Source: Burkholderiaceae bacterium
GTDB lineage: Bacteria; Pseudomonadota; Gammaproteobacteria; Burkholderiales; Burkholderiaceae
Reading direction: 5' to 3'
Length of the DNA: 64,000 bases
NCBI GenBank assembly: GCA_947472645.1
Contig: CANJBQ010000011.1
Location: forward strand, 1-64,000
The notes under the pieces are model-generated. The model had not been told where the DNA came from, ran no database searches, and saw only the letters and a list, made by a program, of their open reading frames with translations. The translations under genes were made by a program, and so were the position numbers. Shown piece by piece: positions 42,750 through 59,483 of the stretch (position 1 is its first letter; each line of letters opens with the position of its first letter).

Positions 42750-43646
42750 TTATAAATATTGTTTAAACCAATTAATAGTCTCCTCATAAGTGATTTGACA
42801 AGTCACGGGATTTCGAAACTCATAACTATCATAATGCCCACTATCAGGAAGCTTAACTAATTTTTTAGGCTCTCCACATTTTTCAAAACAAGTGATTTGC
42901 TGAATCGGGGGTACTAGATTATCAAATTCAGCGTAAATAAATAATGCCGGTCTAGGGCTAATCTGATTAACTACCCATTCTGGACGATAACGCATCGTAG
43001 CCTCCGCACTCTCTAAATCTCTTTCTTCACTCTGAAATACATGCCCTTTTTCTTTATGCATTTCTCTTTGCCTTGCAGAGTCAGGATCTCTCAACATAAT
43101 ATCCCCATGAAAAACCATTTTGGGCTCACCAGTTCTTACTCTGCGCTGTGCATCTTCTTCTACCATTTTCTTAAACTCTAACCATTCCCAAGGTCGACGA
43201 ATACTTTGCATCCAAGTCTGACCATTCATAACCCCTACACTAGTCACTAAAACTTTGACACGTTCATCATGCGCCGTCACCCAAACTCCGTTGGCACCAC
43301 CAAAACTTGTACCAAATAATCCAATTCGTTTTGGGTCTACTCCTGGGATTCCTTGAATATATGAGATGGCGTCATAACAGTTTTGAGCTTGTTCAAGTGC
43401 ACGATGGCGATTTCGTTTTCCTTCACTATCACCAAAACCTTGATAATCAAATCCTAAAACAAACCATCCAGCTTTACATAATTCAATCATCATGTGTGTA
43501 CAGTCTGCCTTTGTATTTCCACTGTAGCCTGCAATAACTAGTATTGCCGGCCGAGGCGCATCACCCACTAGCCAATCAGGGGGCGTATATAAATATCCTG
43601 CTAAACGCAACCCGTCGCTGTAAAAATTTACACTGTCATACTTCAT
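42750..43646 (-). CDS. Alpha/beta hydrolase (dienelactone hydrolase/S9-like)
   Basis: A 298-residue cytosolic alpha/beta hydrolase. The nucleophile elbow GLFGTSFGGANG near residues 110-121, the acid in YAEFDNLVPP near 250 and the histidine in PDSGHYDSYEF near 278 make a full triad. The N-terminal DGLRLAGYLYTPP and VLGFDYQGFGDSEG fit esterase or C-C bond hydrolase branches. It is the last gene of the long minus-strand catabolic run, 13 bases after a Bug receptor, and may hydrolyse an ester or thioester substrate or intermediate. The 172 bases between it and moaC hold no gene I can see. Confidence 0.82.
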   Translation of the reverse strand: MKYDSVNFYSDGLRLAGYLYTPPDWLVGDAPRPAILVIAGYSGNTKADCTHMMIELCKAGWFVLGFDYQGFGDSEGKRNRHRALEQAQNCYDAISYIQGIPGVDPKRIGLFGTSFGGANGVWVTAHDERVKVLVTSVGVMNGQTWMQSIRRPWEWLEFKKMVEEDAQRRVRTGEPKMVFHGDIMLRDPDSARQREMHKEKGHVFQSEERDLESAEATMRYRPEWVVNQISPRPALFIYAEFDNLVPPIQQITCFEKCGEPKKLVKLPDSGHYDSYEFRNPVTCQITYEETINWFKQYL

Positions 43647-43659
43647 ATCAACCTCTCGT

Positions 43660-44625
43660 TTAATCTGGTGTAATACCTGCCTGTTGAATCACTTTAGCCC
43701 ACTGAGCAACTTCTAAAGCAATCGATTTTTTAAATTGATCCGGTGAGCTCGCAATAACCTCCCCGCCATCTTTTTGAATTTTATCCATCACATCAGTCGA
43801 GCGAAGTGCTTTTGAAACTTGCTCATTTAACATTTGTATGATGGAAGGTGGAGTCCCCTTGGGCGCTACAAGCCCTACCCAACTATTAAATTCATAACCT
43901 GGGACAAATTCACTTACACTTGGAATATCAGGGAACATTGGTAATCTTTTTGGACTTGTTACCGCTAATACCTTTATACGTTGAGAGTTCATTTGCCCAG
44001 CTGCAGAAAGAACAGATAGGACGCTTAAGTCAACCTCACCGGACATCAAGGCCATTAATGCGGGGCCACCACCTTTATAGGGAATGTGGGCAAATTTAGT
44101 ACTTGTTTGAAAGGCTAAAAGCTCAACCGCTAAGTGGGTGATTCCACCTGCACCAGATGTGGAATATTTAATCATTCCCGGGTTTTTCTTGGCGAAAGCA
44201 ATTAATTCTTGTAGATTTTTTACAGGTAAATTCGCACTCACTGCAATCATGCTTGGTGATGAAACCATCATACTAATTGGTACAAAATCTTTTTCCGGAT
44301 CGTACGATAGTTTTGGGTATAGTGAAATATTTGCAACCAATGGAATCGTATTAGCTAACAATGTATAGCCATCCGCTGGGGCTTTAGCGACTAGTTCATT
44401 GCCGATGTTTGTAGAGGCCCCAGGTTTGTTATCTAAAATAACACTTTGACCTAATCCTTCAGACATTTTTACAGAAATCAAGCGCATAACACTATCCACA
44501 TTTCCACCCGGAGCTACTGGAATAATGACTCGAATTGGTCGAGTAGGATATTGAACATTCTGTGCATTAACACCAATTACTAAAAAAGCAGAAAAAAGCA
44601 GGCAGTATCGAACCCATGCAAACAT
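43660..44625 (-). CDS. Bug-type tripartite tricarboxylate transporter substrate-binding protein
   Basis: The start chosen is the ATG at 44625 (MFAWVRYCLLFSAFLVIGVNAQ), which gives a clean signal peptide and 321 residues; the upstream ATG adds 19 polar residues. Bug signatures are clear: PTRPIRVIIPVAPGGNVDSV, then DNKPGASTNIGNELVAKAPADGYTLL, and a lobe with YSTSGAGGITHLAVELLA. It binds a carboxylate in the periplasm, and no TctAB partner is adjacent. It lies between the liv genes and the alpha/beta hydrolase, all on one strand, but 124 bases separate it from livF, so it may start its own transcript. Confidence 0.9.
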   Translation of the reverse strand: MFAWVRYCLLFSAFLVIGVNAQNVQYPTRPIRVIIPVAPGGNVDSVMRLISVKMSEGLGQSVILDNKPGASTNIGNELVAKAPADGYTLLANTIPLVANISLYPKLSYDPEKDFVPISMMVSSPSMIAVSANLPVKNLQELIAFAKKNPGMIKYSTSGAGGITHLAVELLAFQTSTKFAHIPYKGGGPALMALMSGEVDLSVLSVLSAAGQMNSQRIKVLAVTSPKRLPMFPDIPSVSEFVPGYEFNSWVGLVAPKGTPPSIIQMLNEQVSKALRSTDVMDKIQKDGGEVIASSPDQFKKSIALEVAQWAKVIQQAGITPD

Positions 44626-57874: not shown

Positions 57875-58070
57875 AGGTAGCCCGTTAATGAGGTTTACGT
57901 TACTTTGGCCCAAAAGCTGGGCTCTGTTCTCCATAGATTCTTTTTTAGATCTTTTTTGTTATTTTTATTATAGGTAAAAAAGACTTAAGAAAGATTGATT
58001 ATTGGTATTAACCCCAATTCAATACTTTATTCAGGATTCCTAATTTTTTAATTATGTCCAAAGAAGACCT

Positions 58071-59483
58071 TTATGCGGCAGCTCTGGATTCCAACTTACG
58101 ATTTTGGGCATCCCAATTACGCTCTAAATTAGAAATTAAAGCTGGACTGAAATGACAATAGGCCTGCTCCTTTGCATATACCGCCATATATTGACGGAAC
58201 ATATCTAAAGGCTCCTGCGCAATCCGAAATGATTTTCTATTACTCGATGCACTGACAACACCAGAGGATGTGATTAAATCAATCGTTGACTTGATTGTTT
58301 GATCAATATCCTGATCCGGAACCACGTAGTCACAAATTAAACGACCTTCTGGGCTTGCGCATTCAATGCGTCTTTCCATCATGATTGCTTGACGAGTTAC
58401 ACGATCACCAACAAATCTAGGCATACGCATATTCGCAACACCTGGAATAATTCCTTCCTTACGTGCTGGTAAAGTTAAATAGGCGCTCTCGCCAGCAATA
58501 TTAATGTCCATGACTAATAAATATTGGCAACCACCACCGATCGCAAAACGATCAATTGCAGCAATCCATAATTTTTCATGCGTCTTACCAAGAATTTCAT
58601 TCGGTGTAATCTCTGGGTAGGCAATCCCTCTATAAATCTTATTGATAAACCCCATGTCACGATCCATATACCAGAGGAAAGGAATTTTGCCACGATATAA
58701 GCGCGTTAAATTAATGCCGGTACTAAATGTTCTTAATCCTTTGTACTTACCTTCCTGAATAAAATCACCTCGCAAAACCGCAATTTGAGTGGCCGGATCT
58801 TGTATTGCAAGGTCAACTGCGATTTCCATATCCGTTAAAGTGTTATCGTCTTCAGCATGTAAGAATCGACCATTTTTAAAATAAACGCTAATAGATTTAT
58901 CACTCTTTTCTACGATGGCCGTGTTTAATTCTAGGCGCCCATCTTTCATCAATTGGTCATAATAAGAAGCTGTTTGGGGGTGGGGTAATAACATCGTGTG
59001 ACAAAGGTGCATGCCGCATTTGACGTTGGCAAGTACATGGCTTAATAAGATGCCTTGATCTATTTCATGACCATCTTTTTCACTTTGCAATAGCTCCGCT
59101 TCTTGGGCTAAGGTTGCAATTGAGGGTGTTAAGCCAGGCACGATCTGCCCAGCCGCTAAAACTAATTGTTCCACTCTCACAAATTGTATGTAATGGGAAG
59201 TTATCTTTTCATATAGAGCTTGAACATGGATATTTAAAAATTTCTCGCGTTGTTCTCTTGATAATTCAAGAAGCATATTTGCTGCCTCTTTTTGTGCTAT
59301 CGATCTTTTTGCCTTGGGTGGTAACTTTGCTAAAAGGCCTAATGCATGTAATAAATTTAAACTGGTTGCTTTACTATCAACCATAAAATCTCCAGTTATG
59401 ACGAGTCGATCTGGGCTTAATTGATGAATATCATTTACTCCAAAACCGATGGCTGTAAGAGCTAATTCGTATTTATTAGTCAT
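58071..59483 (-). CDS. DpgC-like crotonase-fold oxygenase (arylacetyl-CoA 1,2-dioxygenase type)
   Basis: A 470-residue protein much longer than an enoyl-CoA hydratase. Residues 1 to about 190 form a helical N-terminal domain, and residues about 195-410 a crotonase core. The oxyanion loops are RTFSTGINLT (251-260) and AIGGGCQYLL (314-323). The segment PARKEGIIPGVANMRMPRF (339-357) and the later ASPEGRLICDYVV (376-388) match what I recall of DpgC, the cofactor-free enzyme that oxidises 3,5-dihydroxyphenylacetyl-CoA with O2 to the phenylglyoxylate and CoA in glycopeptide antibiotic pathways. Here no NRPS or dpgA/B/D genes are present. Iors and acyl-CoA ligase nearby would supply arylacetyl-CoA. 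An isomerase/hydrolase function remains possible. Confidence 0.75.
   Translation of the reverse strand: MTNKYELALTAIGFGVNDIHQLSPDRLVITGDFMVDSKATSLNLLHALGLLAKLPPKAKRSIAQKEAANMLLELSREQREKFLNIHVQALYEKITSHYIQFVRVEQLVLAAGQIVPGLTPSIATLAQEAELLQSEKDGHEIDQGILLSHVLANVKCGMHLCHTMLLPHPQTASYYDQLMKDGRLELNTAIVEKSDKSISVYFKNGRFLHAEDDNTLTDMEIAVDLAIQDPATQIAVLRGDFIQEGKYKGLRTFSTGINLTRLYRGKIPFLWYMDRDMGFINKIYRGIAYPEITPNEILGKTHEKLWIAAIDRFAIGGGCQYLLVMDINIAGESAYLTLPARKEGIIPGVANMRMPRFVGDRVTRQAIMMERRIECASPEGRLICDYVVPDQDIDQTIKSTIDLITSSGVVSASSNRKSFRIAQEPLDMFRQYMAVYAKEQAYCHFSPALISNLERNWDAQNRKLESRAAA

Follow-up and report, generated by a model that had tools for sequence, protein, structure and literature searches.

At positions 42750-59483 of the 64,000-nucleotide stretch analysed here (the window; positions 1 to 64,000 of contig CANJBQ010000011.1, assembly GCA_947472645.1, from a Burkholderiaceae bacterium of the order Burkholderiales), a run of minus-strand genes encodes a relative of the dioxygenase DpgC together with an IorAB-type 2-oxoacid oxidoreductase, an acyl-CoA ligase, and transporters of the tripartite ATP-independent periplasmic (TRAP) and leucine/isoleucine/valine (LIV) types. 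A preliminary description had read the run as a catabolic route leading from aryl-2-oxoacids or arylacetates to an arylglyoxylate. Its gene assignments, all on this one strand and between these positions, were borne out by profile and PDB searches. The genes are, in order of transcription:

58071..59483, minus strand: DpgC-like dioxygenase, 470 aa (NF042432 370 bits; PDB 2np9/5kag 285 bits)
56909..57934, minus strand: TRAP binding protein DctP (PF03480 99.8 bits)
56382..56909, minus strand: TRAP small subunit DctQ (PF04290 85 bits)
55027..56385, minus strand: TRAP large subunit DctM (PF06808 236 bits)
52811..54964, minus strand: IorA-type 2-oxoacid oxidoreductase, thiamine pyrophosphate (TPP) and Fe-S subunit (TIGR03336 302 bits; TPP_enzyme_C 51 bits)
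51261..52898, minus strand: IorB-type subunit with POR domain and DUF6537 (NF006179 534 bits, cut-off 348; PF01558; PF20169)
49615..51264, minus strand: AMP-forming acyl-CoA ligase (PF00501 331 bits; NF009233 684 bits, cut-off 832)
48423..49568, minus strand: LIV-type ATP-binding cassette transporter binding protein (PF13458 148 bits)
47309..48337, minus strand: LivH-type permease (PF02653 74 bits)
45480..47312, minus strand: fused LivM permease and LivG ATPase in a single open reading frame (PF02653, PF00005, PF12399)
44749..45483, minus strand: LivF-type ATPase (PF00005 108 bits; NF008626 255 bits, cut-off 441)
43660..44682, minus strand: TctC/Bug-type periplasmic receptor (PF03401 233 bits)
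42750..43646, minus strand: alpha/beta hydrolase, possibly a thioesterase or esterase (PF00561 54 bits; a 96% identical copy lies in L126)

Neighbouring reading frames, as called, overlap by up to 88 bases (iorA/iorB) or are separated by up to 136 bases (dpgC/dctP). A scan for promoters and terminators gave no excess over shuffled sequences (37 against a mean of 49.6; 7 against a mean of 14.5), so that the operon structure is unproven and the run is treated, as in the preliminary description, as a locus.

The DpgC-like protein

A PDB search showed the window protein to be homologous to DpgC over residues 49-446 of its 470 (2np9/5kag; 285 bits, E 8e-84). The active site of DpgC, which we take to comprise E189, I235, L237, R254, G296, Q299, A319 and I324 (both the numbers and the roles being assumed), aligns with E211, I257, L259, R275, G317, Q320, A340 and I345 of the window protein, in which all eight positions are kept. 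Each of them is also kept in 36-38 of 38 catabolic-clade proteins, a count that leaves out L182, which differs at E189 and R254. The earlier assignment as a DpgC-type enzyme is supported by this conservation. A further 13 columns distinguish the catabolic clade, being fixed in 37 or more of its 38 proteins and missing from six actinobacterial DpgCs; C at 298 and R at 320, which are among the 13, adjoin active-site positions. The midpoint-rooted tree separates a clade made up of the six actinobacterial DpgCs (100/100) from the 41 rows that include the window protein (100/95). Profile scans recognised no DpgA, DpgB or DpgD among the genes of the run; dpgA and dpgB are annotated in L184, and all three genes in L185.

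Some of the relatives are variants. The proteins of L174, L177 and L182 carry M or I in place of E189 and H in place of R254, and they may differ in substrate or activity; the genes of L174 and L177 still adjoin PaaK. A distinct DpgC-like group (L178-L181) lies beside the antibiotic DpgCs on the tree and shows no PaaK match nearby, and one of its members, L180, occurs with LIV and PadBC-like genes.

Gene neighbourhood and co-occurrence in relatives

Nine loci with relatives were found in a scan of species genomes. In the close relatives L022 and L023 the run is preserved up to the end of the compared DNA (which in L023 falls inside livH), and L126, on the contig of L022, shows it through to the last gene. 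That contig was the only one found to carry close forms (about 88% or more) of the LIV, Bug and hydrolase genes; more distant LIV genes adjoin dpgC in L026 and L157. Two other Burkholderiales loci, L025 and L027, combine dpgC and the ligase with iorA, iorB, a TRAP transporter and a gene for a 4HBT-type thioesterase, in an order different from that of the window. In L026 and L157, which belong to an alphaproteobacterial family, the ligase, iorB and iorA are divergent from dpgC and a LIV transporter.

The surroundings of dpgC were then tallied over 39 main-clade loci; some of these are close relatives, and they are therefore not 39 independent events. The tally leaves out loci of other clades (L028, L045, L178-L181), L030, the truncated or broken L029, L055, L056, L057, L182 and L183, and L125, which duplicates L026. 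Identity thresholds were set by us and distances were taken between aligned parts. A CoA ligase lies within 10 kb of dpgC in 28 loci. It is PaaK-like in 19, always within 400 bp of dpgC, and in the other nine it is at least 44% identical to the window ligase or its L026 relative (window type). The dpgC-like gene, iorA and a ligase occur together within 10 kb in seven loci from two proteobacterial classes, and the linkage anticipated in the preliminary description thus recurs: the core of the locus is the dpgC-like gene, a CoA ligase and iorAB. The idea of IorAB as an obligate neighbour was rejected, iorA being that close in 7 of the 39 loci, though it is present in the genome in 13 of 14 and 25 of 28 carriers of the two groups described below. 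Two loci have BoxB in the same 10-kb range of dpgC, and one has a PadB-like gene. For comparison, 35 IorA-centred control stretches of 3.5-20 kb (L104-L121 and L219-L236 minus L231, with L218 and L206 outside the set, and some of them from DpgC-like genomes) contained PaaK once and a PadB-like gene once.

PaaK-like here means at least 50% identical to the PaaK of L047. The PaaK model TIGR02155 (cut-off 646.3) was applied to the dpgC-adjacent copies of six order genomes and of L161, L165 and L174. Those of all six genomes (G059, G100, G105, G148, G177 and G187; 679-702 bits, with 692 bits for L047, which is one of their loci) and of L161 and L174 (716 bits) pass, and that of L165 fails (606 bits). 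In the window genome, G000, the best protein reaches 148 bits and the window ligase 36 bits. The clade with the window-type ligase (93/94) is placed among PaaK-linked lineages of the DpgC tree via a weakly supported fork (81/79), which suggests that one ligase was replaced by another. The product of 49615-51264 is proposed to be a phenylacetate-CoA ligase standing in for PaaK in the window clade. That an arylacetate ligase forms part of the system had been surmised beforehand, and the 19 PaaK-like neighbours agree with this.

At the genome level, 399 genomes of the order were searched, the window genome included, of which 14 have a DpgC-like protein (E <= 1e-40), 75 a BoxB over cut-off, 64 a PaaA over cut-off and 49 an IorA of this type. 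The aerobic Paa route is represented in these counts by PaaA alone (PaaB-E were not searched) and the box route mainly by BoxB. BoxB occurs in 14/14 DpgC-like genomes and in 61/385 others (p 2e-11), and IorA in 13/14 and 36/385 (p 4e-12). When only the 75 boxB genomes are considered, PaaA is found in 0/14 carriers against 41/61 others (p 2e-6); the window genome shows no match to the PaaA model TIGR02156 at E <= 0.001. Relatedness was controlled in part, through a genus-level test and the use of two families. All seven DpgC-like genera have BoxB, against 41 of 158 genera overall (p 5e-5), and all seven have IorA, against 31 of 158 (p 6e-6). The second family, that around L026, has IorA in 25/28 DpgC-like genomes and in 31/101 others (p 3e-8), so that the two proteins co-occur in both groups.

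These results bear on the view that the genes are a loose catabolic cluster with no common pathway, the DpgC-like protein being an ordinary crotonase acting on another acyl-CoA. Catabolic genes do cluster in general, and the close-form LIV, Bug and hydrolase genes are confined to the nearest relatives. Against this, the N-terminal region and active-site residues of the DpgC type are retained, and both linkage and co-occurrence recur in two classes. We regard this view as very improbable.

The flanks of the run look unrelated to it: moaC and an M48 peptidase gene lie at one end, and at the other a gene whose product looks secreted and has no Pfam match. The latter gene belongs to a block at 59689-62989 on the plus strand, divergent from dpgC, that encodes three proteins of 495 aa (secreted-looking), 128 aa and 481 aa (membrane-like), none with a Pfam match; the block is also kept in L022 and L023. 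Elsewhere in the window (3040-10304, plus strand) there is a second aromatic-type cluster with an AMP ligase, a 781-aa protein (FAD_binding_3 and Oxidored_FMN), a short-chain dehydrogenase/reductase, a MarR regulator, an enoyl-CoA hydratase and an acyl-CoA dehydrogenase, which resembles 2-aminobenzoyl-CoA or salicylyl-CoA monooxygenase clusters.

A proposed route from phenylacetate to benzoyl-CoA

The genome of the window encodes, on contig 54, BoxA, BoxB and BoxC with scores of 699, 901 and 929 bits (equivalog cut-offs 459, 499 and 712, all exceeded). In L027 the connection is physical. Its iorAB, TRAP, thioesterase, ligase and dpgC genes are followed after 63 bases, on the other strand, by boxA, boxB, boxC and a BoxR-type regulator and then by genes for 3,4-dehydroadipyl-CoA semialdehyde dehydrogenase and benzoate-CoA ligase, with iorAB, ligase, dpgC, boxABC and benzoate-CoA ligase in one 21-kb stretch. 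In the second family, L165 combines PaaK and dpgC with genes that similarity assigns to the BoxR, BoxC and BoxB types; the stretch gave no BoxA match. BoxB was present in 19 of 23 examined genomes with a DpgC-like or DpgC protein, the four without it being those of L026, L028, L029 and a paaA-bearing Micromonospora. The L026 genome has no boxB match; its benzoyl-CoA reductase subunit A scores 796 bits against a cut-off of 578.

The L026 locus itself combines ligase, iorAB and dpgC with PadBCD-like genes. The genes downstream of its LIV set encode a molybdenum oxidoreductase, a 4Fe-4S protein and a membrane protein with weak similarity to DmsC; both their order and their sizes are those that we take PadBCD to have. 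Such genes directly precede iorA and iorB in L218, and in L230 a second set is divergent from iorAB.

Because carriers nearly always have a benzoyl-CoA route, benzoyl-CoA is the probable sink of the pathway, and IorAB is therefore placed most simply after the DpgC-like enzyme. An arylglyoxylate as end product, fed by IorAB, was accordingly dropped: all order carriers have boxB, G436, which is without boxB, has a benzoyl-CoA reductase, and box or box-type genes stand beside dpgC in L027 and L165. What stands of the preliminary interpretation is that the genes belong together, with an arylacetate ligase and a DpgC-type active site; the order of steps is likely reversed, with the DpgC-like enzyme before IorAB and benzoyl-CoA as the goal.

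We propose, with a probability of roughly 0.6, that the locus encodes the uptake functions and the three initial reactions of an aerobic route for phenylacetate, the substrates, reactions and transport specificities being deduced from the gene content. Phenylacetate, or a close arylacetate, would be imported by the TRAP transporter, the LIV transporter or both, and converted to phenylacetyl-CoA by the AMP-forming ligase. The DpgC-like enzyme would then, without a cofactor, direct O2 onto the acidic alpha carbon of phenylacetyl-CoA and release CoA and phenylglyoxylate, an activity that may be termed phenylacetyl-CoA 1,2-dioxygenase. In the third step, IorAB would act as a phenylglyoxylate:acceptor oxidoreductase (CoA-benzoylating), forming benzoyl-CoA, CO2 and two electrons from phenylglyoxylate and CoA. 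Benzoyl-CoA would finally be opened by the BoxABC epoxide route encoded on contig 54. In its logic the scheme would parallel the anaerobic Pad pathway, the molybdenum enzyme PadBCD being replaced by one that depends on O2.

The step assigned to IorAB is the weakest and is drawn from context. The IorA matches TIGR03336 over residues 27-671 (301.9 bits, equivalog cut-off 650.9, not reached); its TPP_enzyme_C match (51 bits) exceeds the cut-off of 21.9, and that to Fer4_10 (21.5 bits) stays below 25.5. A PDB search with IorA gave no match at 1e-10. Cysteines 623, 629, 635, 659, 662, 665 and 675 are invariant in the six rows of an alignment of relatives. IorB exceeds the cut-off of its subfamily model NF006179 (PRK08312). 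Translation of iorB probably begins some 28 codons past the TTG at 52898, since the profile match begins at residue 29, two of six clustered relatives have 517 aa and the longer reading in L022 contains a stop. A rapidly built IorA tree with a single type of support places dpgC-linked IorA in two separate parts (L025 and L027; the window, L022, L023, L026 and L157), so that iorAB seems to have become linked to dpgC repeatedly. Relatives of DctM adjoin iorA in L109, L110, L111, L114 and L120 (59-71% identity) and in L229 and L233 (61-62%).

Three genomes have a tandem iorA pair before a single iorB (L107:1607-5876, L111:8371-12494 and L120:7930-12155). In each case one copy lies in one half of the IorA tree and the second in the other (one L107 copy appears there as L083), and the pair are perhaps two substrate-specific subunits sharing one partner.

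The order of the preliminary description has to be weighed at this point. In it, IorAB would convert arylpyruvates to arylacetyl-CoA, the ligase would feed the same pool, the DpgC-like enzyme would form the arylglyoxylate, and another enzyme set, for example benzoylformate decarboxylase with an aldehyde dehydrogenase and benzoate-CoA ligase, would lead on to benzoyl-CoA. PMC9765128 reports that Aromatoleum IorAB converts phenylpyruvate to phenylacetyl-CoA. IorA of this type is found in 36 order genomes without DpgC, of which 23 have paaA and five neither paaA nor boxB, and L027 has a benzoate-CoA ligase near boxABC. These points speak for this order, and the first two weigh against our assignment of IorAB. 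In PMC13285125, one enzyme of the IorAB superfamily is described as specific for (hydroxy)phenylpyruvate although its sequence is closer to 2-ketoisovalerate enzymes, so that the name IorAB argues neither for nor against a given substrate. Among the scanned part of the dpgC neighbours no benzoylformate decarboxylase was recognised, the whole window genome not having been searched. A TPP decarboxylase-type gene beside dpgC in L162 was rejected as a candidate: its best model is the generic NF006052 and it adjoins a CoA transferase gene. The position of IorA beside PadBCD-like genes, whose proposed product is phenylglyoxylate, also leans towards IorAB acting after the DpgC-like enzyme, though it would fit an upstream IorAB too. 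We consider the earlier order unlikely; it is possible that IorAB performs both steps, on phenylpyruvate and on phenylglyoxylate.

The ring of the substrate is a separate matter. The same chemistry could act on an arylacetate with a hydroxylated ring (3- or 4-hydroxyphenylacetate, 3,5-dihydroxyphenylacetate) or with an indole ring (indoleacetate). PaaK is replaced by another ligase in the window clade, and the residues that we assume to contact the ring hydroxyls in DpgC are retained, which fits a hydroxylated substrate as well. Set against this are the PaaK-like ligases adjoining dpgC in 19 of 39 loci and, within the window clade, the boxABC genes of L027, which lie next to dpgC and call for benzoyl-CoA. 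A substrate with such a ring seems distinctly unlikely to us.

Several other observations, besides the retained ring-facing residues, weigh against the proposed route. The window protein, at 370 bits, is under the 530-bit cut-off of the DpgC equivalog model NF042432, on which the order member L054 reaches 428 bits and the Micromonospora protein L030, over a part of 396 aa, 520 bits. Linkage of iorA to dpgC within 10 kb is limited to the seven loci mentioned (some stretches being shorter), IorA has no match in the DpgC-like, boxB-bearing G274 and in 3/28 carriers of the second family, and BoxB occurs in 0/35 of the IorA-centred controls. The absence of PaaA over cut-off is not significant over the whole order (0/14 against 64/385, p 0.14) or at the genus level (0/7 DpgC-like genera, 38/158 overall, p 0.14), and 6/14 order carriers have a weak PaaA match (five of 83-92 bits and one of 28; cut-off 280). 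No boxB was seen in the genomes of L028 and L029, whose completeness is not given. The label PadBCD-like, for L026, L218 and L230, follows from domains, gene order and sizes that we assume; searches of the PDB and of plasmids with the PadB-like protein returned only distant molybdenum oxidoreductases. Our confidence was slightly lowered by the weak PaaA matches and by the lack of BoxB around IorA.

A wider claim, to which we give somewhat less than even odds, would be that this is a widespread third aerobic phenylacetate route in Proteobacteria, with a DpgC-type enzyme in place of the molybdenum enzyme and IorAB leading to benzoyl-CoA, followed by the box pathway (aerobic) or benzoyl-CoA reductase (anaerobic). 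Genomes such as that of L026 would then make the same intermediate with and without O2, by DpgC-like and PadBCD-like enzymes, and the antibiotic DpgC would be a relative of a catabolic family. The literature searched, mostly without subscription journals, gave no published description of such a route among the matches listed, and no paper with the phrase phenylacetyl-CoA dioxygenase.

Relation to known systems

DpgC is known from antibiotic synthesis and uses O2 without a cofactor. As (3,5-dihydroxyphenyl)acetyl-CoA 1,2-dioxygenase of glycopeptide antibiotic producers (PDB 2np9, 4ylh, 5kag), it resembles the window protein in homology, in the active site and in the proposed conversion of an arylacetyl-CoA and O2 to an arylglyoxylate; the window protein differs in lying outside the DpgC clade, in the 13 distinguishing columns and in a run in which no DpgA, DpgB or DpgD was recognised. 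PMC10548524 calls DpgC metal-independent. The occurrence of its relatives beside phenylacetate-CoA ligase in Proteobacteria would give the family a catabolic role. Antibiotic producers may have recruited DpgC from catabolic enzymes, or the reverse; the midpoint-rooted tree fits either direction.

A comparable step is described for L-phenylglycine biosynthesis by PglA-E in Streptomyces pristinaespiralis, where, according to PMC7089894, phenylacetyl-CoA is oxidised towards phenylglyoxylate in a step called a dioxygenase. That system, compared by its description, is biosynthetic and is suggested there to proceed via benzoylformyl-CoA and a thioesterase. Aromatoleum aromaticum IorAB (indolepyruvate:ferredoxin oxidoreductase) shares with the window proteins the enzyme class and the pairing of IorA with IorB. 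The window pair is set apart, in a comparison made without the Aromatoleum sequence, by its proposed substrate phenylglyoxylate and by an IorA under the TIGR03336 cut-off.

The Pad set consists of phenylacetate-CoA ligase, PadBCD and a multisubunit phenylglyoxylate dehydrogenase, PadE-I. The anaerobic route runs through phenylglyoxylate and benzoyl-CoA (PMC9765128). The Pad pathway of Thauera and Aromatoleum would thus share with our scheme the intermediates phenylacetyl-CoA, phenylglyoxylate and benzoyl-CoA; here an O2-dependent, cofactor-free enzyme would take the place of the molybdenum enzyme and IorAB that of PadE-I, with the box genes as lower pathway in the order carriers.

With the aerobic hybrid phenylacetate pathway (PaaK and the PaaABCDE epoxidase) the route shares aerobic, CoA-thioester-based chemistry and, in many relatives, a PaaK gene beside dpgC, and we class it as a variant of the known aerobic CoA-thioester pathways. 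It differs in that PaaA over cut-off is found in 0/14 order carriers and in that the side chain would be shortened before the ring is attacked. If correct, it would explain the use of phenylacetate by bacteria that bear boxB and lack paaA, and surveys based on paaABCDE only would miss phenylacetate degraders. The BoxABC epoxide pathway, as the proposed lower pathway, would here be fed from phenylacetate via phenylglyoxylate instead of from benzoate.

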